In this document: in pieces, positions 19,410 to 62,543 of the stretch
How positions within the stretch are numbered: position 1 is the first letter of the stretch
How the letters are laid out: each line of letters begins with the position of its first letter
Notes under the pieces: generated by a model
The model's database searches: none
Seen by the model: the letters and a program-made list of their open reading frames with translations, nothing else
What the model was told of the DNA's origin: nothing
Source of the DNA: Cryphonectria parasitica EP155
Taxonomy: Eukaryota; Ascomycota; Sordariomycetes; Diaporthales; Cryphonectriaceae
Direction: 5' to 3'
Assembly (NCBI RefSeq): GCF_011745365.1
Contig: NW_024468909.1
Location: 248,001-312,000, forward strand
DNA: 64,000 bases
Translations under genes and position numbers: made by a program

Positions 19410-20948
19410 ATAATTCGTGTTCCGAGAAGAAAAGAGAAAAAGAAATGAGCGTCAATTTCTACACTCATGTTCCAATGCGGAAATCTCCTGTCACGAGGTT
19501 GTCCCCCTTCTTACCACTACGCAGGTTTGAGGCAAATGCAACCTGCTTATATTGACTGATATCCACCCCTACAGGACATATTTGCTGTCTTGTACTTGTT
19601 ACTTCGACGTATGAACTGACTTTCTTTTTGGTTATATAGCGCATGTGTTTTTGGATAAGGAAAATAGGTAGGCTTCGGTGAAAAGCGGTGTATGCAAGGA
19701 TATAAAAAAGGAGGGTGGACACGGAGGCATGCAAGGTTTGTTTGTGTGCTATATTTCTCTACATTGCAACAAATAACATAGCCAACATAGTAGTGATAAT
19801 CAAACTACAACTACAATTAAATGTGTCTAAGTATAGTAGTCTGTCATTCCCCATAAACACTGGCCGTTCATATGTACTACTGAAGATAGCATACGGACGA
19901 ATTCGCTTTCCGACTCGGTTGAACAAGAGTGTTTTGAGGATCTTTTTGCCAGTGCGGACTGAGTCGAGAAGACCGACCCGTCTCAAGCCTTCGATATCGC
20001 CCAGGCTCCATGCGATTTGTTTCGCGATTCCCAGTCGCGTGGGTCGGTCAAGGTGACTTTTACGGCCGTTTAGCATGCACGAAGCGCCATTCATACCGGT
20101 TGAGGCACCATGTGCAGTGTCTGTAGTGCCCCTCTTCGGGTCCAGCCGAGCTGACCAAGTCTAAAGGTAAGCATGCGGCCGTAGTACTATCTTCACAACT
20201 CTCAAGGCTTCCAACAGCTGCTGCCTGAGAAGCAACCCTTCTAGCCCTGAAGACCTCAACGAACTCCGACCAGGCAGCCCGGTTTCCAGGCTCGCATACG
20301 TCACACCTGTCATGCGTCCGAGACAGCATCGTACGTATGTTGTCAGCAATGCCCCCACGTCGCGGCTGTTGAGGTTGGCCGCATGTGGGTCGATTTCGTA
20401 GGATCTTACTTCTCAGTGGTTGGGGTCGTGTTCCCGAGGCCTCAGAGGTTCGAACAGCGTTTGACTTTGGGCCATTGTGCACGACCACGGAAATGCGGAA
20501 ATCCAAGCGGGTGGGAAGCTTTTATCTCCATCAGTACAGCTTAGCTGACAGATCGATCGGATATCGACCGAAGCACGCCAGAGATGCATGCATATACACT
20601 CCTGGGGAGATGTATAGGGGACGATGTTCACAGATATAAGTACATCAGCTCTTCTCGGCCACAACGGCCATCTCTCTCTCCCTTCATCACCATCACCAGC
20701 TTTCCATTCACTCTCTCTTGTCTTCTTTTTGAGATAACTACTCTGGAAGTAGTACTTCACTTTTTTCATTGCAAGATTGAATTACACCTGGCGTGTACAA
20801 CTTGCTGTATTCATTTGACCCTCACTCGTTTTGGCAATAGCACTCATTCACAACCAGTTCAAGTTGATCAATTCATTTATCACCACATCACCTTCAATCC
20901 TACTCATTCCAAACACCCACAGTACCTCCTTTCCGCCATTCAGTCAAG
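19410..20948. other. Intergenic region upstream of the repeat-peptide precursor
   Basis: No gene supported. A TATA-like GATATAAG occurs at 20633-20640 and is followed by CT-rich sequence and an uninterrupted leader of about 250-300 nt before the ATG at 20949, which looks like a promoter plus 5' UTR. Short frames at 20060-20506 (minus) have no motifs. Confidence 0.45.
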
Positions 20949-21578
20949 ATGCGCACTTCCAACGTGATTGGCTCTCTGCTGGCCACCATGGTCATGGCTG
21001 CCGGTGTCCAAGGCGCGCCTGTCAACAACCAGCGCGACCTCGATACTCTTGACGCGCGTGCGCCTCAGCTCACTGGCATCGTGGATGCTCTTGAGGATGC
21101 ATTCAAAGGCGTTTCAAGCGCTTCCAAGGGACTAAAGACATCCAAGACTACAGAGAAGGAGGCTCAGAGTAGCAGTTCAAGCGGATCAGGTGGCGAAACT
21201 GTTTCCATTTCTTCTGTAGATGCCAAGCGTTCACCTCAGCTCACAGGCATTGTGGATGCTCTCGAGGATGCGTTCAAGGGAGTTTCCTCGGCGTCTAAGG
21301 GCCTGAAAACTTCAAAGACTACCGAGAAGGAGGCTCAAAGCAGCTCCTCTAGCAGTTCAGGCGGTGAGACTGTTTCGATCCCTTCTGTAGATGTCAAGCG
21401 TCAATTGTCAGGAATTGTGGATGCTCTGGAGGACGCATTCAAGGGGGTTTCGACAGCTTCCAAGGGCTTGAAGACAGCCAAGACTACAGAGAAGGAGGCT
21501 CAGAGCAGCACCAGCAGCAGCAGCGGCTCTAGCACCTCTGGGAGTGTTACTGCTGTGATTCCATCTGTCGATATCTAG
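20949..21578 (+). CDS. Secreted tandem-repeat precursor with Kex2 sites (KEP/RiPP-like)
   Basis: Intronless, 209 aa. Residues 1-22 form a signal peptide (MRTSNVIGSLLATMVMAAG, cleavage likely after VQG). A short pro-region ends LDAR, and then three units follow at residues 40-92, 97-149 and 152-209, separated by KRSP and KR. Each unit has an amphipathic block (L[TS]GIVDALEDAFKGVS), a Lys/Thr block (ASKGLKT, KTTEKEAQ), a Ser/Gly-rich stretch and SVD plus one small or aliphatic residue. The last unit ends exactly at the stop where KR would occur. Known fungal Kex2-processed repeat proteins include pheromone precursors, KEPs and dikaritin RiPP precursors; no UstYa/DUF3328 or UstYb partner is seen in the window. 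A role as a secreted peptide hormone, effector or structural peptide is open. No Cys is present. Confidence 0.85.
   Translation: MRTSNVIGSLLATMVMAAGVQGAPVNNQRDLDTLDARAPQLTGIVDALEDAFKGVSSASKGLKTSKTTEKEAQSSSSSGSGGETVSISSVDAKRSPQLTGIVDALEDAFKGVSSASKGLKTSKTTEKEAQSSSSSSSGGETVSIPSVDVKRQLSGIVDALEDAFKGVSTASKGLKTAKTTEKEAQSSTSSSSGSSTSGSVTAVIPSVDI
21066..21224 (+). repeat. Precursor repeat unit 1 (53 residues)
   Basis: Begins QLTGIVDALEDAF and ends SVDA followed by KR. It is preceded by DAR-AP, a monobasic version of the KR-SP spacer. Confidence 0.85.
21237..21395 (+). repeat. Precursor repeat unit 2 (53 residues)
   Basis: Begins QLTGIVDALEDAF and ends SVDV followed by KR. It is preceded by KR-SP. The first 34 residues after Gln are identical to unit 1 although about half the codons differ. 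Confidence 0.85.
21402..21575 (+). repeat. Precursor repeat unit 3 (58 residues)
   Basis: Begins QLSGIVDALEDAF directly after KR, has an expanded Ser/Thr/Gly linker, and ends SVDI at the stop codon. Confidence 0.85.
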
Positions 21579-22246
21579 ATGGTGTGTGGTCAAGCAAGTA
21601 AGCGTGGGACAATGTTTAGTCTATTATTTTCAAACAAGGAAACTTTTCCAAGAACACAAGTGAATAATTTCAGCAAGAAATGAAGTGGCACAACAATTAT
21701 CAAGCATTGGGTCTGACAGCATCTTATTTACACGTCTGAAGGACCAAAGGCTCACTCCAAACATTCCATCTTAGTACTCAAAAATTACACTCTCCCCCCC
21801 CCCCCCCCCCAAACCAGTGAATATAAGCCTCCAGTGTTTTGGTCCTTCTCTCATCACTTGATCTCATGTTACAATAAGGTTTTGAAGACTTGGAGCAAGT
21901 GAATGCCTGCAGTTCACCAAGGATATTATTGCATGCTGCTGATAATGTGAATTGCAGAAATATCTAGTATTGAATGCTATTTGATAAAATTAATTGATGA
22001 ACATGATTTGCTATATAAACATAATTCGCAACCATTGTTGCCTCCTCCTTCCTCCCATCAACTCGGCTTGTCAGGCATCAAAAAACATTCACAACCCAAC
22101 CCACATCCAGTCTCATCAATTCTCAACACCAAGACATTGCCTTTCGATAAGGTCGTATTCTCCAGCCTCAGCAGCTATCTCGTCATCATCGATGTTGAAT
22201 TTCTCGTCGCCATCCTTCTTGAGATTCCTTGGCAAAAGGTTTCGAT
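21579..22246. other. Intergenic region with 17-nt C run
   Basis: 3' region of the precursor gene and 5' region of the tail-anchored protein gene. A poly-C tract occupies 21794-21810. No gene. Confidence 0.6.
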
Positions 22247-23418: not shown

Positions 23419-24720
23419 TCACACAATGGGATCCTCCTCACCTATGCTTGGCCTCCTTTCCGCCTCAATTCTGTATACAAGCTTCTCACCACTGATAGGT
23501 CTCATGTGCTCTTCGGTTCTGTCGTTATTCCGACGCGAGACTGCCGTGCCCAACAAACTGAACCCATCTTCCACGATCCTATCTAGGCCGCCTGGCATGA
23601 TGCGCACCGGGTTTGGCTGCAGAGAACCCAAATCAGACAACCATTTGTAGAAGGCCATCGCAAATGATCTTTTCGCAGGCGATGTCTTGACCACAAAGCC
23701 CTGATAAGAAATATCCACGCCAAGACCTTCCCACACTGCGCCATAGAGAGGTTCCGTCGTCACGCCCTCTGTTTCCCACGCACCTGCTGCCCTCGACCTG
23801 ACGACCGCCATCTTGCCACCTTGCTTGAGGGTGCTGCTGACATCTCTCACCGTCGAGCCCTCCGAGATGGCATCATACGCAAAGTGCACACCACCACCTG
23901 AAGCTGTTCGCACCTTCTCAGGCCAGTCTTTGTCGCGATAGTCCACCAGCACATCATACGCATATGGTTCCGCCTTGAGCATTTCCCAGTTGCGCGGGCT
24001 GGCAGCCCCAATCAGCCGTACCTTGCGACCACTGACTTCTGCGCTCCTTCGCACCAGCTGGGCGGCATACAGGCCAACGGAGGTCGACGCACCAGCAACG
24101 AAGAAAGAAAACTCATCGTCATCGTTGGCACCAGCAGCGTCGACCCTGCTACCTATCTCGCTCTCGACGCGGCGCAGCACACCCTCGTCGCTCTCATCCT
24201 CCCATTGGAACGGCGCGTCCAAGCCCAGGCGGAAGAACAAACCCTGCGCGGCCGTCAGGCCACATAAGCTCACAGCTGCCGCTTCCTCAAACGTCACACT
24301 GGCGGGGATTCGCCAGACCAGGTCCACTGGACAGACCAGGTACTCGGCAAACGCCCCCGGCCGCTCGTTGACACTGCTCGCTCCCTGCAGAAAGCCAGCA
24401 ACGCGGTCCCCACGATTGATGCTGGTCGTCAAGGCAGTGCTGGACCTGCGCAGGCGACTGGGCCCGCCGCCTCCGTTGGTGGTGGTGTCGTCATTGTTGG
24501 GGGCCGCAGGTGGGCCGCGGGCGACAACGATGCCAGCAAAATCGGAGCCTATGACGCGGCCGGTGCTTCCGAGAGGATGCAAGGTGTACAGTGCGTCGAC
24601 GGGATTGAGGGCGACGGCTTTGACGGCGATGAGCACCTCGTCTGGGCCAGGGACGGGCATGGGATGGGAGGTGGTCACGGTGCCAGTGGCATTTTCTGCG
24701 TCGAGGATGAGGGCTTTCAT
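23419..24720 (-). CDS. Medium-chain (zinc-type) dehydrogenase/enoyl reductase family, toxD/LovC-like
   Basis: Intronless, 433 aa from ATG 24720. The N-terminal GroES-like domain (MKALILDAENATG; PGPDEVLIAVKAVALNPVDA; GSDFAGIVV) and a Rossmann domain (FFVAGASTSVGLYAAQLVRR; IGAASPRNWEMLKA; VDYRDKDWPEKVR) match the quinone-oxidoreductase-like/trans-enoyl reductase branch of MDR enzymes. No structural or catalytic zinc cysteine cluster is visible, as expected for this branch. Members reduce activated double bonds with NADPH; some act in trans with polyketide synthases, but no PKS is in the window. An unusual Asn/Asp/Thr/Gly-rich insertion interrupts the GroES domain (around residues 74-95). The gene converges on the tail-anchored protein gene, with 236 nt between stops. 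Confidence 0.88.
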   Translation of the reverse strand: MKALILDAENATGTVTTSHPMPVPGPDEVLIAVKAVALNPVDALYTLHPLGSTGRVIGSDFAGIVVARGPPAAPNNDDTTTNGGGGPSRLRRSSTALTTSINRGDRVAGFLQGASSVNERPGAFAEYLVCPVDLVWRIPASVTFEEAAAVSLCGLTAAQGLFFRLGLDAPFQWEDESDEGVLRRVESEIGSRVDAAGANDDDEFSFFVAGASTSVGLYAAQLVRRSAEVSGRKVRLIGAASPRNWEMLKAEPYAYDVLVDYRDKDWPEKVRTASGGGVHFAYDAISEGSTVRDVSSTLKQGGKMAVVRSRAAGAWETEGVTTEPLYGAVWEGLGVDISYQGFVVKTSPAKRSFAMAFYKWLSDLGSLQPNPVRIMPGGLDRIVEDGFSLLGTAVSRRNNDRTEEHMRPISGEKLVYRIEAERRPSIGEEDPIV

Positions 24721-26114: not shown

Positions 26115-29100
26115 GGCGTCTCTGGAAGGGTGTGGGGAAGAGGATGAAATTAACTAAGTGTTGATAATGTTTGGTGGGTATCTTGTGGTAGTTTGATTGA
26201 TATGTTGCTTGAAATTTTGAAGTATAATTGTCTTGCGACGATTTGATGAAGTCGTGGGAATATTAGAGAAATAAATACAAGGCGCAAGCAAATGAGGAAC
26301 ATGATCGACAGGATCGGGGCCTTCTTCCTCTTCTTTTCTATTCATCCTAGGATTCATTATCATATTGAGGGAAATTTGGATGAGGCACGACTTTCCTTAC
26401 AACCAGTCGGGCCCACCGTTGAGCAGAACAGCGGTGAATCCATGGGAGCAGGCCCACGTGTCAAGGCAGGGCGGACAACGCACTGCCAGCAAGTACCCAA
26501 CTCAAAACAGTCACCCGAGATGAAGCTCAGCCCGTGATCCATGGGCACCCCCAGTATGTAATAATCTGAAACGGGATCCACTCCCGAAAACGTTGTGCCA
26601 CCAAAACAATCTCCGCCTCGTCCTACAGTGGCCGTGGTGGTAGTGGAAGCAACAGAAGAAGCAGAAAAACCGCAGGAAAATTCTGGAAGGACGATAACTC
26701 GGCCATGAACCAACCAGGGGGGTGGTCCCACCAGTTGGGATGGGAAATTCTCCACAAAAAGCCACGATGGAGTGGACACTGGAGAAACAATTGTGAACGG
26801 ACTTCATACTTCATCCAACCTGCCCGGGTACTTCCGCGGTGTAAGATTTGTCTATCTCTCTACAGGGGAACGAAATCTGCCGTGGGTGCGTGCACACGAG
26901 TGCAACTTGGCCATGCAGCTCTTTGATTAATGCTCTTGACCCCTGCCGGGAAGGAGACGAGATTTCTGCCAAAATCACAAATTGCTTTCCGAGGTTCCCG
27001 TGGCGGTGGTCTTGCGGCTAGGGCGGTCACCGACCAAAAGAATTGCCAACATCACTCCACAGCACACAGAAACAGCTTGGAGCCTTCTTATCAAAGTCGC
27101 TTGTGGAGATGGACACGTTGGCCCTTGACCCGTATGGCATGTACTACAATGGAGATCAAAATAGCATCACAAAGCCACCGATGTTGGCCAAGAAAGAGCA
27201 CGCCACCGGATGCGAACGTCACCCAATGGAAATTTGGGAGGCAAGTAAATGCGAAAACAGAGGCGGTCACGAAGAAGTCGGGGGTGTCTGGAAGGAGAGG
27301 ATTCCTGGCACTGGCTGGCAGCATGTACATAGCCACGGCTCAACGGAAAAGCGCAAACCGAGGTTAAAGTCATTCACTGAAGCCAATGGCGACGTGGACG
27401 AGCTTTGAACAGGGTCAACTGACTTGGCGACTTCCATAGGTTCCTTATCTCTTTGTGTTCCCCTCTCACCGTCGAACGAGACAAGCTGTTACTTACCCAT
27501 CCCGTTGTCGAGTGCCAAAGTCAGCTCATGCTTATCCATGTTGTGTACTTGCACGCAATCAGTGTCCTACGTGGCCATGCCCCCATAGAAGGTCCGTGGC
27601 ACTCTATTATTAGCACACCCCCCTCAGGTCTTGATTGTCTGTATGAGACCGCTCATCACACGCATGTAAGGATGATCTCGTGGGTAGTTGAGGCACAAGT
27701 AAGCTAAGCCTGTGTGATCGTTTCGGAGGATAGTTCGGATATAATGCTGTGACTCAATATTGACAATTTTGCGGCCCTTGAGAGGAACAATGAACCGTTG
27801 CCTTGGATCAAAAAACATCCTTGGTCTGAAATTATTGACTGCGATGCAGGTTGACCCCGGGTAACAGCTTTGAGCCTTTGAATGCGAATGTAATGTGGAG
27901 CTAGAAGAGGCAATTAAGTTGCAAGAAGAGCCTTATATTACAAACTTGTATAATACGTCCCAGTCCAAGGCTGCCTGTTAAGTAGGTGGGATGCAGTATA
28001 AGAACTGGGAAAGACGCTGCTTTTCTCTGGTTTTCAATTAGTTATCGTATTCACAAACAGGGATTCCGCGGGTTATAGCTTGAGCCTTAAAACTGTTGCT
28101 ATAGTGGGCTTCTATTAATCCTATCCTCATCTGTCCGTTAAAAGTCAGACGCGAGGCTGTCGGCTTTGGATCAACCGTATTCATTTCATAATCACAGACT
28201 TCAAGCGTGGCTATATGTGAACCTATCAGCCACATGCATCGAGGACTTAAAGACGTCCATCTCATCACAAAGACGTCGTGATCTAATAGACTATGTTAAT
28301 CAATAGGCTGGTGTATCACACATTTCCTGATCTCAGAGGCGAGTCATAGGGGACCAATCATATAGCCAGCTGTACTATCTTCAAAGTGGTTTTTGCGCCT
28401 TCTCGTCCACATGAGAGTCTCATACAGAGTTCTGTCAGTCTATCGATAGACAAGGGCAATATGCTTGGGGCTTACAAACACATGGTCGAATCACGAACAA
28501 GAATACCGAGTACAAAAGCGCCAAGGTCTGAGTGGCGCTGCATGCTTGATAATCCGCTTTTCCCATCCAGCCTAGTCTGGCCAGCATTCATCCTGGCTGG
28601 CAAGAAGCCTTCACCGCATCCAGTCTGTCAGAACCAGGAAAAGTGAGCCAGAGCCTAGAGCTCGTATCGGCCCTTTCGGTCCTCGACGATATACCATGTG
28701 AATCTAGTTGCAGTGCCCACCCTGTGTAATATTTTTTTTTTTTGCCTCCTACAGACCGTATCAAGTATAGAGATTGTGATAGTGCCGGCGAGCTTACACA
28801 CCAGACACACCACGTGAGGAATACTATGTGCTGTGATGGGATAGCTGCCTCGACATCATACCGTCGGGACGTCCTCTCTTACAGTGCTGCTTACTCACGT
28901 CCTCCAGGACGAGTTAGACTAAGCATATCGCGTGCCTATACAGTCCAGTAAAAGGCGATCGATAGTCGCATAAACATCACAAATGTGCACTATGGCTTTA
29001 TGGATTCTTGATTAGAATACGAGGCTGACTGTGCATGGATATTCCAGACAGTATAGATCGAGGCAATTACCAATGTCTACATGAATGTCTAAGGACAGAG

Positions 29101-29190
29101 AAGTATATAATGACACCAGGTCTTCAGACTTTCCGTATCTCAGATAGCTCGACATGCCTCATGTTCTTCTCTGAATTGTTTAATTCCAAG
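26115..29190. other. 3 kb gene-poor region
   Basis: Several 60-145-codon frames on both strands (for example 26360-26779 minus, 26930-27367 plus, 27091-27336 minus) lack an ATG, motifs or both. None is called. It may hold eroded sequence or untranslated regions. A TATATAA at 29104-29110 near its right end belongs to the next gene. Confidence 0.4.
29104..29110 (+). promoter_or_regulatory. TATA-box-like element of the PL7 gene
   Basis: TATATAA 81 nt before the ATG at 29191. It also argues that the in-frame ATG at 29035, upstream of the box, is not the start. Confidence 0.45.
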
Positions 29191-30267
29191 ATGGGTCTTT
29201 CTTCCTACTTCCTCTACGCTGGCCTATTGGCTGGCCTCGCGTCCCCGCGACATGTCACCGCTTTGAATCCGGCATGCGCACCAGGAGGCAATTTCGACTT
29301 GAGCATCTTCAACCTCCAGCTTCCCATCGCGGACTCATCCGGCGGCGTCACTACGATCCCAGCCTCAGAGCTCGAGGGCTGCGACGGGTTCCAGGATCAG
29401 TACTTTTTCACCAACACAGCCGACGGATCGCTTGGAATGAAAGTGCCCGGAACTCCTGCGGCCACGGGCTGCGTGACGACGTCCGGCAGCTCACACTGCC
29501 GCACAGAGCTGCGCGAGGATAGCCCGTCGAGCTGGTCGCCGTATGATTCCGTCAACAGACTTAGTGCCTCGCTCACGGTCTTCGACGCTGGGGGCTCAAC
29601 GTGCGTTGGACAGATCCATATCGACGACAGCATCTCTTCGAAACCGGTCTGTGAGCTGTATTACTATGACAGCGGAGCGATTGTGATGGGCGTCGAGCAG
29701 ACCACGGCAGGAGGGAATCAGGTCACGACCACTGTCGGGAGCGTTCCAGTCGGCACAGCGTTTTCCTACGAGATCCGATATGAGAACAACGAGTTGTCGG
29801 TGCAGATCAATGACGATGGCTTCCAAGTATTGTCGACCTATGAGCTTGACGGTCCAGACTCATACTTCAAAGTTGGGAATTATTTGCAGGGCGACTCAGC
29901 GTCGGACGTTCACTTCTACTCGATTGACATCACGCATTCAGACAGCGGGTCGTGCACTATAACCCAGCCGAGCAACACAGATGACAACACGGTCACCCTG
30001 AATTTGTACTCTAGTTCCTGCTGTGACAGCGCTTTCGAGACCATCACAATAGGCAACCTGAGCGTCTGCCACCAGGCGAACGAGGCGTTCAGCGCGCTGA
30101 CGCAGGCGGTTGGGCAGGATCTGTTCGGAAGAAGCATTCACATTCTGGTGTATGAGGATGTTGCATGTCAAGATGCCGTTGCTGAGACAATCAATTTGAC
30201 CAACACAAATGAATGTTGGGAGGATAGTGGTGCTTCTTGGAATAGCTTTCAGGTTGCAGTGTCTTAA
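29191..30267 (+). CDS. Secreted polysaccharide lyase family 7 (alginate lyase-type) with extra C-terminal domain
   Basis: Intronless, 358 aa from ATG 29191. The frame extends to an ATG at 29035, but only the internal ATG gives a signal peptide (MGLSSYFLYAGLLAGLASP). Family PL7 signatures: RTELRE (residues 104-109), QIHID (141-145) and YFKVGNYLQ (225-233), which line the catalytic cleft; the Gln and His of QIH and the Tyr of the third block are the expected catalytic set. Substrates in the family are alginate or other uronate polymers, cleaved by beta-elimination; in a land fungus, glucuronan-like polymers are possible. A further about 105 residues with around seven Cys (SGSCTITQ, SSSCCDSAF, SVCHQA, DVACQ, NECWED) follow the lyase domain and resemble a small secreted beta-domain, perhaps for binding. 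Confidence 0.88.
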   Translation: MGLSSYFLYAGLLAGLASPRHVTALNPACAPGGNFDLSIFNLQLPIADSSGGVTTIPASELEGCDGFQDQYFFTNTADGSLGMKVPGTPAATGCVTTSGSSHCRTELREDSPSSWSPYDSVNRLSASLTVFDAGGSTCVGQIHIDDSISSKPVCELYYYDSGAIVMGVEQTTAGGNQVTTTVGSVPVGTAFSYEIRYENNELSVQINDDGFQVLSTYELDGPDSYFKVGNYLQGDSASDVHFYSIDITHSDSGSCTITQPSNTDDNTVTLNLYSSSCCDSAFETITIGNLSVCHQANEAFSALTQAVGQDLFGRSIHILVYEDVACQDAVAETINLTNTNECWEDSGASWNSFQVAVS

Positions 30268-59131: not shown

Positions 59132-60182
59132 GTTGGGCGAACGTTGTTCTGCTGCTTTCCAGGCAGAGGAGACTACAGATGTATACTCGCGCTGGCCCCA
59201 GCCCAGGTGAAGAAGGAAGAGGGGGGGAAGGGCTGCAGCTGAGGTGACATTGTCGAGGTCGGCTCACATATATAGGATGGGAGCCGCCTTATCAGTCCCA
59301 GACTGCTGGGACTTGTATCAGTCCAGTGACCCCGAGACAACCTGGTCCAGGCTCTGAAGGTGCAGCTGCAAGATGCTTCGAGGTGGTGGCGTGTCTGACC
59401 TTCCCAGGCCGATTGCTTACCCTGTGCCTGCATCCTGATCCCCAGAGACTTGAGCCCAGAACGTGCTTGGATCGACTTGCCTCAGACCGCTCGGCCAGGT
59501 CCGGACCATACGGCACGCTGCCTCGGCTGGGGATTCCGTGGTGAGGGCATCCACAATAGCATCCCATCTGGGGCGACGAGTTGCCATTGGACAACATTCC
59601 CCAGCTTTCCTCGTGATGTGTGGGGATTCTGGGGTTCTTCCTCGAGGGGGGAAAAGCGAGGTCATTGAAGCGGCTGGGATTCGACCCCACACGCTGCAGC
59701 AGTCGCCCGTTGGGATCGGATTTTCCATCCACTTGATGACCCTTGTCTCACGAGTTTGGTGTTAGCTCGTCAATAGACGAGGCACCCAAAGCGCGGGGAA
59801 GTGCAGGCAGTACCGCTGTCCTTGCTGACCAACGAGCCGACGGGTAGTATTTTATGCGGCCAGGTGCTCACGCCATAAGAGACTGGTAATAAACATTGTC
59901 CTTCTGTCGCTGTCGGCCGAGCCACAGTGGTGATCACGTACCATATGCAGACGACTTAGTCAAAGGCCTGACCCGGCTCTTTCGGGATTGCGGCGCGAAC
60001 TTCCTAGGCTCTCGACCTTGTACTGTAGTAGAATGTGACTTGGTCCCTGCACCTTTTGACCGAGGCAACGTGCATTGGGATCGCTCATAGAGAGCTTTGG
60101 ATACAGCCCAGTCGCTCTGGTTCGCGTCTCACCACGGGTTGTTGTTTCTCAGACTGAGTTCGAGAGACTTGCCAAAGCCAAC
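59132..60182. other. 1 kb divergent intergenic region (MFS / GH95)
   Basis: Shared promoter region of the two genes. Frames of 60-146 codons on both strands (59292-59732 minus, 59463-59765 plus) have no motifs. A tRNA T-arm-like GGGATTCGACCCC near 59688 was examined and rejected. Confidence 0.5.
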
Positions 60183-62543
60183 ATGGTTTTGGACACGCCC
60201 AGGAACCTCGACACATCCCAGGCGTCCTCCCTCTTGTACCACAAGCCATCCACAGAATGGTCTCAGGCACTTCCTATCGGCAACGGGCGCCTTGGAGCCA
60301 TGGTGCATGGCCGAACCGACACAGAACTTCTACAGCTAAATGAGGACTCGGTTTGGTACGGCGGACCGCAAGACCGTAAGCCACGCGATGCTCTCCAAAA
60401 GCTGCCACTTCTCCGGCAGCTTATCCGTGAGGAACGGCATGCCGAAGCCGAAGAGCTCATTCGGACAGCCTTCTTCGCAACACCGGCGAGTATGAGGCAT
60501 TATGAGCCCCTGGGATCCTGTTCTTTGGAGTTCGGCCATGGAAACGTGGTGGACTACGTGAGGAGTCTGGACATATCACGATCAGTGTGCAAGACCTCGT
60601 ATACGTTCCACGTTGCTGATGGCGCTGCTGGTTCTGTCGGAGAGCCGGTGAAGGTCAGGCGAGATGTCATCGCAAGTTTTCCAGACCAGGTTCTGTTGAT
60701 GAGGGTGGAGACGAGCCAAAAGATTCGCTTCATCGTACGTCTCAACCGCGGAAGCGAGATCGAGTGGGAGACCAATGAATTTCTTGACTCCATCGATGCG
60801 ACAGAGAACCGTATCGTGTTGCAAGCCACGCCCGGGGGCAGGAACAGCAACAGACTGGCTCTGGTTCTAGGCATCCGGTGCGATGACAGCCACGAGGGGG
60901 GCTCTGTCGAGGCCGTAGGCAACTGCCTGCTTGTGAATTCTGCTGCATGCATGATCGCAGTTGGCGCCCAGACCACGTACCGGACAGAAGCCCCCGAAAA
61001 GGATGCGGTGGAAGATGTGAACAAGGCTCTTCGGCAGGGCTGGGATGACCTCCTCGCGAGGCACGTCGCAGACTATCGCTCTCTTTACGACCGCGTCAGC
61101 CTGCAGATGTGGCCGGACAGCCCGCATATCCCTACCGACGAGCGCATTGCGAGGCACCGCAACCCGGGGCTTGTTGCACTCTATCACAATTTTGGCCGAT
61201 ACCTGCTGATTTCGTGCAGCCGGGACGGTCACAAGGCTCTCCCGGCCAACCTCCAAGGGATATGGAATCCCTCCTTTGCCCCGCCGTGGGGTTCCAAGTA
61301 CACTATCAACATCAATATCCAGATGAACTACTGGCCTGTGGCTGCAAGCAACCTCTTGGAGTGTGCTCTACCGCTCGTAGATCTGCTAGAACGAATGGCG
61401 CAGAGGGGCCGCGAAACAGCACAAACAATGTATGGCTGCAAGGGCTGGTGTGCTCACCACAACACTGACATATGGGCCGACACAGATCCTCAGGACCGGT
61501 GGATGCCAGCGACGCTGTGGCCTCTGGGCGGTGTGTGGATCTGCATCGACATGATGAAATTGGTGCGAGAGCGGTATGATCGAGCCCTGCACGAGCGTCT
61601 TGCGCCTGTTCTCGAGGGCTGTGTTGAGTTCCTGTTGGACTTCTTGATCACATCAGAGTGTGGCAGATACCTCGTCACAAACCCATCTTTGTCGCCAGAA
61701 AACACCTTTCTATCCAACGGCAAACCTGGTATCCTCTGTGAGGGGTCCACCATAGATATAAGCATCGTGGATATGGCCTTCGAGTACTTCCTTTGGACGG
61801 TGGCCAAGCTGTACGGGGGTGAGCACCCACTGGCCGAGAGGGTCCAAGAGGCAAGGCTGCCCCCAGTACAGATCAACGAGCAAGGCCTCATCCAGGAGTG
61901 GGGCTTGAAGGACCACGATGAATATGAACCAGGTCACAGACACGTGTCTCACCTTTTCGGCCTCTATCCAGGAAACAGCATCCGCTCACCCCAGGAGTTG
62001 GAAGGAGCAAGGAAAGTGCTCGCGAGAAGGGCAGCACATGGTGGAGGCCACACCGGGTGGAGTCGAGCCTGGCTGCTGTGCATGCATGCCCGGCTGAGAG
62101 ATGCTGAGGGATGTGGCAAGCACATGGACCTTTTGCTTCGAGACTCGACTCTCCCGAACATGCTCGACAACCATCCCCCCTTCCAGATCGATGGTAACCT
62201 TGGAGGCTGTGCCGGCATTCTGGAATGTCTTGCGCGGCGATGGGAGCCAAGCTTGTACGAGACAGGCGTCACTCTGCTGCCGTCTCGCCCCAAGGAGTGG
62301 TCCCGAGGTAGGCTGACGGGACTTCATGTTCGCGATGGCTGGACAATATCATTCGAATGGAGCGATGGCGAGATTGTCGATCCTGTCATTGTCAACAATA
62401 CCACATCAAACAGTGACCCATCCATATCGATGGCAGTCAAATACCCTAACGGAAGGGTGGTTTCTGTGCAAGGATCAGGAGAGCACCGCATTACACAAGC
62501 TGATGCCAATTTCAAGCATGGAAAATGCGGTGATTTCAGGTGA
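60183..62543 (+). CDS. Glycoside hydrolase family 95 (alpha-L-fucosidase type)
   Basis: Intronless, 786 aa from the first ATG at 60183 (MVLDTPRNLDTS); the frame is open to 60075 with no ATG. GH95 landmarks: the N-terminal beta domain WSQALPIGNGRLGAMVHG and LQLNEDSVWYGGPQDR, then the (alpha/alpha)6 barrel with LPANLQGIWNP, KYTININIQMNYWP (the two catalytic-site Asn), GWCAHHNTDIW, NPSLSPENTF (general acid Glu), GHRHVSHLFGLYPG, and GWSRAWLLCMHARL with FQIDGNLGGCAGI (catalytic Asp). All expected catalytic residues appear present. The family inverts alpha-1,2-fucosyl or related alpha-galactosyl linkages of xyloglucan and glycans. No signal peptide is seen, unlike secreted homologues, implying intracellular action or a missed upstream exon. 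Divergent from a sugar transporter gene. Confidence 0.93.
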   Translation: MVLDTPRNLDTSQASSLLYHKPSTEWSQALPIGNGRLGAMVHGRTDTELLQLNEDSVWYGGPQDRKPRDALQKLPLLRQLIREERHAEAEELIRTAFFATPASMRHYEPLGSCSLEFGHGNVVDYVRSLDISRSVCKTSYTFHVADGAAGSVGEPVKVRRDVIASFPDQVLLMRVETSQKIRFIVRLNRGSEIEWETNEFLDSIDATENRIVLQATPGGRNSNRLALVLGIRCDDSHEGGSVEAVGNCLLVNSAACMIAVGAQTTYRTEAPEKDAVEDVNKALRQGWDDLLARHVADYRSLYDRVSLQMWPDSPHIPTDERIARHRNPGLVALYHNFGRYLLISCSRDGHKALPANLQGIWNPSFAPPWGSKYTININIQMNYWPVAASNLLECALPLVDLLERMAQRGRETAQTMYGCKGWCAHHNTDIWADTDPQDRWMPATLWPLGGVWICIDMMKLVRERYDRALHERLAPVLEGCVEFLLDFLITSECGRYLVTNPSLSPENTFLSNGKPGILCEGSTIDISIVDMAFEYFLWTVAKLYGGEHPLAERVQEARLPPVQINEQGLIQEWGLKDHDEYEPGHRHVSHLFGLYPGNSIRSPQELEGARKVLARRAAHGGGHTGWSRAWLLCMHARLRDAEGCGKHMDLLLRDSTLPNMLDNHPPFQIDGNLGGCAGILECLARRWEPSLYETGVTLLPSRPKEWSRGRLTGLHVRDGWTISFEWSDGEIVDPVIVNNTTSNSDPSISMAVKYPNGRVVSVQGSGEHRITQADANFKHGKCGDFR

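Follow-up and report, generated by a model that had tools for sequence, protein, structure and literature searches.

A predicted Kex2-processed precursor with three strongly constrained peptide units in Cryphonectria parasitica

Introduction

Fungal KEX2-processed repeat proteins (KEPs) combine a signal-like leader with near-identical units, Kex2 sites between these units and X-Pro spacers (Le Marquer et al., 2019; Umemura et al., 2020). In the 2019 survey, which covered 250 species, KEP motifs ranged from 3 to 352 aa, with one class above 51 aa, and the pipeline retained precursors for which cutting at KR/RR yields four fragments or more, a cut-off that is no biological definition (PMC6339444). 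The 2020 survey required that at least three tandem repeats, each 8-100 aa long, lie between Kex2 sites and classed 2560 of 7878 KEPs, about a third, as stand-alone types (PMC7329392), so that orphan status is not unusual by itself. Peptidomics of KEPs in C. cinerea documented pyro-Gln, trimming of the STE13 type and products that fit cleavage at a single Arg (PMC9769878). The same source describes function as unassigned for most KEP peptides and reports six C. cinerea KEP knockouts without apparent phenotype, and a strong function can thus not be presumed for a newly found member.

Several other systems share parts of this layout. Alpha-type pheromone precursors of ascomycetes carry a short repeated W..C core, and Mf1/1 of Cryphonectria parasitica is named in PMC7329392. 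From the Rep1 protein of U. maydis, Kex2 releases amphipathic peptides, 10 with a length of 35-53 aa and one with 228 aa, which form surface-active, amyloid-like fibrils (PMC4617103). Candidalysin, one of the eight moieties of the multi-peptide precursor Ece1 of Candida albicans, is a linear, membrane-damaging peptide released by Kex2 and Kex1 (PMC9769878, PMC7329392). Dikaritins such as ustiloxin and phomopsin also derive from Kex2 repeat precursors, in their case with short Tyr-containing cores and adjoining UstYa genes. Here we describe a three-unit precursor from C. parasitica, a fungus for which a kex2-silencing study has already been published, and compare it with these systems.

Results and Discussion

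Organisation of the precursor gene

We analysed a window of 64,000 nucleotides, corresponding to C1:248001-312000 in the 43.8 Mb assembly of C. parasitica EP155. At window positions 20949-21578 of the forward strand, on which all features of the gene given below are located, a single open exon encodes a protein of 209 aa, starting with the ATG at 20949 and ending with a TAG at 21576-21578. A possible TATA element (TATAAG, 20635-20640) lies about 310 bases 5' of the ATG, with a CT-rich stretch after it; over the 348 bases examined 5' of the gene, the only ATGs are those at 20610 and 20624, both located 5' of TATAAG. The protein begins with a signal-like leader (residues 1-22, 20949-21014) containing a hydrophobic stretch, residues 6-16 having a calculated mean Kyte-Doolittle value of 2.2. 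Its predicted cleavage point after residue 22, between VQG and AP, obeys the -3/-1 rule, and alternative sites compatible with this rule follow residues 17 and 19. The leader is followed by a pro-region, APVNNQRDLDTLDAR (residues 23-37, 21015-21059), which ends in LDAR, an LxxR type of Kex2 site, and by an AP dipeptide (21060-21065).

The remainder of the protein consists of three units. Unit 1 (residues 40-92, 53 aa, 21066-21224) is followed by KR (residues 93-94, 21225-21230) and an SP dipeptide (21231-21236), unit 2 (residues 97-149, 53 aa, 21237-21395) by a second KR (residues 150-151, 21396-21401), and unit 3 (residues 152-209, 58 aa, 21402-21575), in which the Ser-rich tail is longer, by the stop codon. 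The two KR pairs, both predicted Kex2 sites, are the only dibasic sites of the precursor, unit 1 being preceded by the single Arg of LDAR rather than by a dibasic site. Every unit starts with QL and ends with SVD(A/V/I), and the units are preceded by AP, SP and nothing, respectively. The TAG occupies the same codon position as the AAG encoding the Lys of KR in units 1 and 2. Between residues 40 and 209 there are 17 Lys and two Arg, both of the latter within the KR pairs, and Cys, Tyr and Trp are absent from all 209 residues. The unit peptides are acidic, with computed pI values of 4.7-5.0. At the DNA level TRF describes a 171-base array of 2.7 copies. The other two units share 94% and 79% identity with unit 1, and 31 of the first 34 residues are identical across all three.

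A first-pass annotation made from the letters of the window had already proposed a Cys-free secreted precursor with this leader, these three units and spacers, KR after units 1 and 2 and a stop codon in place of the third Lys, and the present analysis recovers each of these elements at the same positions, the leader by hydropathy and the -3/-1 rule. Beyond the stop codon (window 21576-21605) the frame stays open for 34 codons with a Lys-Arg at codons 8-9, probably by chance, and this stretch shows no resemblance to a further unit. A run of 17 C residues is located at 21794-21810, about 215 bases 3' of the stop codon.

Silent divergence and amino-acid conservation of the units

In order to assess the constraint on the units, their first 34 codons (102 bases) were compared pairwise. 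Base differences number 19 between units 1 and 2, 18 between units 1 and 3 and 21 between units 2 and 3, and the corresponding amino-acid differences are 0, 3 and 3; the third codon position accounts for 17 of the 19, 13 of the 18 and 16 of the 21 changes. When the same number of base changes was placed at random, keeping the frame stop-free, in 20000 trials per unit pair, the mean number of amino-acid changes was 12.5 (1/2), 11.9 (1/3) and 13.5 (2/3), and for each pair none of the 20000 trials was as conservative as the observed sequences. Nei-Gojobori estimates for the pairs 1/2, 1/3 and 2/3 are 1.59, 0.98 and 1.78 for dS and 0.033, 0.061 and 0.054 for dN. The Ser-rich tail is looser (residues 35-53 of units 1 and 2, dN 0.14, dS 1.1).

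The large excess of dS over dN between the units indicates that the frame represents a genuine protein-coding gene, and the combination of heavy silent change with near-zero amino-acid change points to strong selection on the peptide sequence, which is direct evidence that the peptide matters. The units are no recent duplication; judging from the silent divergence, either the array dates back a long time or its silent positions were driven apart. Uniform constraint alone cannot tell a ligand from a structural element. The initial proposal that the agreement of the units at both ends is hard to explain by chance turned out to be overstated, since tandem copies are largely expected to agree there through duplication. 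Informative beyond duplication are the constraint despite silent change, the stop at the Lys codon and the spacers, which resemble those of the pheromone precursor.

Predicted maturation and shape of the units

For the spacers, the genome itself provides a yardstick. On contig C7, a pheromone precursor gene (C7:2021745-2022896, minus strand) encodes nine copies of WCLFHGEGCW, which we take to be the core of the C. parasitica Mf1/1 pheromone, with several long non-core fragments between the cores. Seven of the nine cores follow KR and X-Ala/X-Pro runs of varying length, one follows RR directly and one follows a single Arg (VEAR). The arrangements in the three-unit precursor, KR with SP, KR with nothing and LDAR with AP, closely match these styles, and by analogy the precursor would apparently mature by the mating-pheromone route. 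Genes of the respective enzyme families are present. The genome encodes a kexin (PDB matches 2id4, 1r64 and 1ot5, E 3e-160 to 6e-160), a DPP-IV protein with an apparent N-terminal membrane segment as judged by eye (C7:2000462, the sole DPPIV_N match of the genome search) and S10 carboxypeptidases (27 exon matches) as candidates for Kex1. The DPPIV_N match lies about 20 kb from the pheromone precursor gene. While Glu_cyclase_2 had no match in the genome search, an M28 protein (387-aa frame) matched a 'peptide hydrolase' best in the PDB (1.5e-84), followed by glutaminyl-peptide cyclotransferases (5e-54); a second M28 frame was rejected as a glutaminyl cyclase, as it matched glutamate carboxypeptidase II instead.

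The subsites are less favourable. The LxxR motif is known from the pro-domains of Kex2-processed effectors, with Asp being unfavourable at P3 and Ala lying outside the five best alternatives at P2 (PMC8528282). LDAR has Asp at P3 and Ala at P2, and both KR sites have Asp at P4, which counts against efficient cutting by Kex2; excerpts of PMC2515848 yielded no rule for P3 or P4.

All in all, the precursor is most likely cut into three linear peptides, a fate that we consider probable. The signal peptide would be taken off after residue 22, a kexin would cut after LDAR and after both KR pairs, and the dipeptides AP and SP would be stripped by a DPP-IV/STE13-type enzyme and the KR on units 1 and 2 by a Kex1-type carboxypeptidase, whereas unit 3, with the stop codon at its end, would need no such trimming. 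The secreted products would be three linear, Cys-free peptides of the form QL(T/S)GIVDALEDAFKGVS...SVD(A/V/I), probably pyroglutamyl and with an O-mannosylated Ser-rich tail. Their calculated monoisotopic masses for units 1, 2 and 3 are 5218.59, 5286.65 and 5701.89 Da when unmodified and 5201.56, 5269.62 and 5684.86 Da as pyroglutamyl forms. Release by this set of enzymes had been put forward in the first-pass annotation; the layout, the pheromone-like spacers, the candidate enzymes and the KEP peptidomics (PMC9769878) speak for it, the individual cuts being predicted ones.

An AlphaFold2 model of unit 1, computed with the three units as alignment, predicts a helix at residues 3-16 and an unstructured remainder (mean pLDDT 64.9 for the model; residues 1-10, 83; residues 11-20, 72). 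The segment GIVDALEDAFKGVSSASK (residues 4-21), which was picked by eye, has a hydrophobic moment of 0.53, a value matched by 4 of 10000 shuffles. A model of the leaderless precursor, built without an alignment, is of low confidence (mean pLDDT 52.8) and places helices at 91-131 and 149-186, which span both KR sites. The unit most likely forms a short amphipathic helix followed by a Ser-rich tail, in agreement with the helix-like block and tail noted at the outset.

Relatives and classification

A search of the whole precursor against 5.8 billion proteins, in which the 7985 candidates with the most shared words were scored, returned the protein itself only at E values up to 10, and so did an uncapped search with residues 23-84 alone (18 candidates, E up to 10). 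The alcohol dehydrogenase encoded nearby served as a control and had 826 hits; amongst the best 120 of the 826 all except the EP155 protein itself (95%) had at most 76% identity. Gnomoniopsis, Diaporthe and Cytospora are named amongst these best 120 of 826, demonstrating that other Diaporthales are in the database; no named protein from other Cryphonectriaceae occurs amongst them, many of the entries being nameless. The control hits therefore test the absence of relatives outside the Cryphonectriaceae and hardly inside the family, for which the genomes of eight species are described in PMC7565894. The array (21056-21562) shows heavy silent divergence, yet no relative was found in sister families, a puzzling combination that may be explained by loss elsewhere, by lineage-specific constraint, by transfer from an unsampled source or by selection for silent differences that block recombination within the array.

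Within the genome, unit 1 matched the three units only at E up to 10, and neither the precursor nor unit 1 matched a PDB sequence at E up to 10. Pfam searches with the whole precursor gave Antimicrobial_3 (0.0045), DUF7760 (0.0065), Inhibitor_I34 (0.019) and six weaker families, of which DUF7760 alone was left when the three units were searched singly (E 0.13, unit 3), and NCBIfam gave four unrelated bacterial families at 0.018-0.39. All Pfam leads were rejected as composition, because the unrelated bacterial families score alike. The genome searches with DUF7760 and I34 had no match in EP155 or in the control genomes and are uninformative. Exact fragments of the units did not occur in the paper texts searched, and the titles and abstract openings of the papers listed on Cryphonectria with Kex2, effectors or secreted peptides contained no description of the gene. 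From these sequence comparisons the units probably represent an orphan outside any described family, as had been suspected when no family was recognised by eye.

By its layout the precursor would be a KEP, a new orphan of a kind already known. It contains three near-identical internal repeats with KR between them (93-94 and 150-151), where at least three repeats and KR, RR or KK are expected for a KEP, and it shares with these proteins a signal-like leader and the X-Pro spacers; compared with them, it has as few as three units and two dibasic sites, and no homologue was found. Its two sites give three fragments, one below the four of the 2019 pipeline, so that this survey should not contain it, and long, low-copy precursors below that cut-off may be under-counted there. 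Under the 2020 rule the three units with two dibasic sites might have been included, depending on how the ends of the protein are counted. What the pheromone precursor has in common with it are KR with variable X-Ala/X-Pro spacers and a core after a single Arg, in the same genome. The pheromone cores, however, are 10 residues long, contain Cys and occur in nine copies, whereas the units are Cys-free, 53-58 residues long and unrelated in sequence, and the short repeated W..C core is absent. The units are indeed far longer than dikaritin and pheromone cores, as had been pointed out, but this length has precedents in the Rep1 peptides of 35-53 aa and in the KEP class above 51 aa (PMC4617103, PMC6339444). 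With Candidalysin the units would share release as linear peptides from a multi-peptide precursor; unlike the Ece1 moieties they are all alike, and they are acidic. The evidence for constraint and the yardstick from the same genome raise the standing of this predicted KEP.

Possible functions of the peptides

Taken as a whole, we lean towards a KEP that releases linear, separately acting peptides. The helix (about residues 3-16) would be the working part, its conserved hydrophobic face docking on a single specific partner located on the surface of the hypha or close to it, while the tail would serve as a soluble spacer. Because the first 34 residues are almost completely constrained, a single specific partner is favoured over coating in bulk; such ligand-like docking is a tentative possibility. 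It appears rather unlikely that the peptides act on one exacting partner as a non-sexual hormone or inhibitor that is restricted to the lineage and owes its maturation to the route of the mating pheromone.

A coating role is the doubtful but most serious competitor: like repellents, the peptides could be cut by Kex2 and act in bulk, self-assembling at the interface of air and water or on the hyphae, alongside the hydrophobin of the fungus. Rep1, compared here by description only, resembles the three-unit precursor in peptide size and Kex2 layout, and the head of the units is amphipathic. The near-identity of the three constrained heads contrasts, however, with the twelve imperfect repeats of the fibril-forming Rep1, the best 19-residue hydropathy past residue 30 is just 0.63, the head is predicted as a helix and not as a strand, and the sequence matches no solved structure; in excerpts of PMC3032640 no repellent-type protein is described for an ascomycete. 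It is also unlikely that the chain stays uncut as a repetitive secreted or wall protein, in which KR would belong to the linkers and three helices would be strung on Ser-rich linkers. The presence of two dibasic sites only, the Asp at P4 and the helices that run through the junctions in the low-confidence precursor model would fit such a protein. Against it stand the fact that the repeat region has just two Arg, both of which belong to KR pairs at the unit borders, the pheromone-like spacers after the KR sites and the stop at the Lys codon of the third border; as judged by eye, a strong hydrophobic GPI-type tail is lacking at the C-terminus, where the best 11-residue hydropathy is 1.45.

Peptides aimed at other organisms, as host-directed effectors or antimicrobial helices, seem similarly improbable. 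In Pfam, the weak hit on a spider antimicrobial peptide (E 0.0045) is gone on single units and probably reflects composition, and lytic helices are typically cationic, whereas the peptides have the acidic pI given above. Silencing of Kex2 is reported to diminish the virulence of C. parasitica (Jacob-Wilk 2009, cited in PMC5048421 and PMC8528282), which would suit an effector, but growth defects of kex2 mutants blur this link (PMC8528282). The precursor of a cyclised, dikaritin-type RiPP is very improbable in spite of the Kex2 repeat layout and the many UstYa genes of the genome (36 exon matches): the closest UstYa found on the contig is about 638 kb away, the Pfam scan of 20 neighbouring frames revealed neither UstYa nor a peptide-modifying cluster, and the units, devoid of Tyr, Trp and Cys, far exceed the core length of ustiloxin and phomopsin (PMC7329392). 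Hardly any weight falls on an IA3-like helix inhibiting an aspartic protease (Pfam Inhibitor_I34). C. parasitica is the source of endothiapepsin, and the whole protein reaches E 0.019 with 16 bits; this score lies below the 25-bit cut-off, the match is lost on single units, the genome has no I34 match (nor has the control), the PDB search up to E 10 was empty, bacterial families give similar noise, and a literature search for IA3 found nothing.

Genomic surroundings

The precursor gene is flanked upstream by a gene for a HET-domain protein and downstream by a 311-aa frame and the alcohol dehydrogenase used as a control. The Pfam scan covered 20 of the 48 window frames of at least 170 aa, 8 of the 20 having no match. 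Amongst the further genes of the window, 29029-30267 encodes a protein of the alginate-lyase family (PF08787) and 60060-62543 a protein of glycoside hydrolase family 95. Elsewhere in the genome, UstYa (DUF3328) matches are grouped at C4:107844-114432, C7:2271991-2278233, C3:2287026-2292248 and C8:2081218-2086176, possibly marking dikaritin-type clusters. The best hits of the alcohol dehydrogenase (23419-24720, minus strand) include proteins labelled as Mycena, a basidiomycete, with 69-76% identity, which may reflect transfer or mislabelled contigs.
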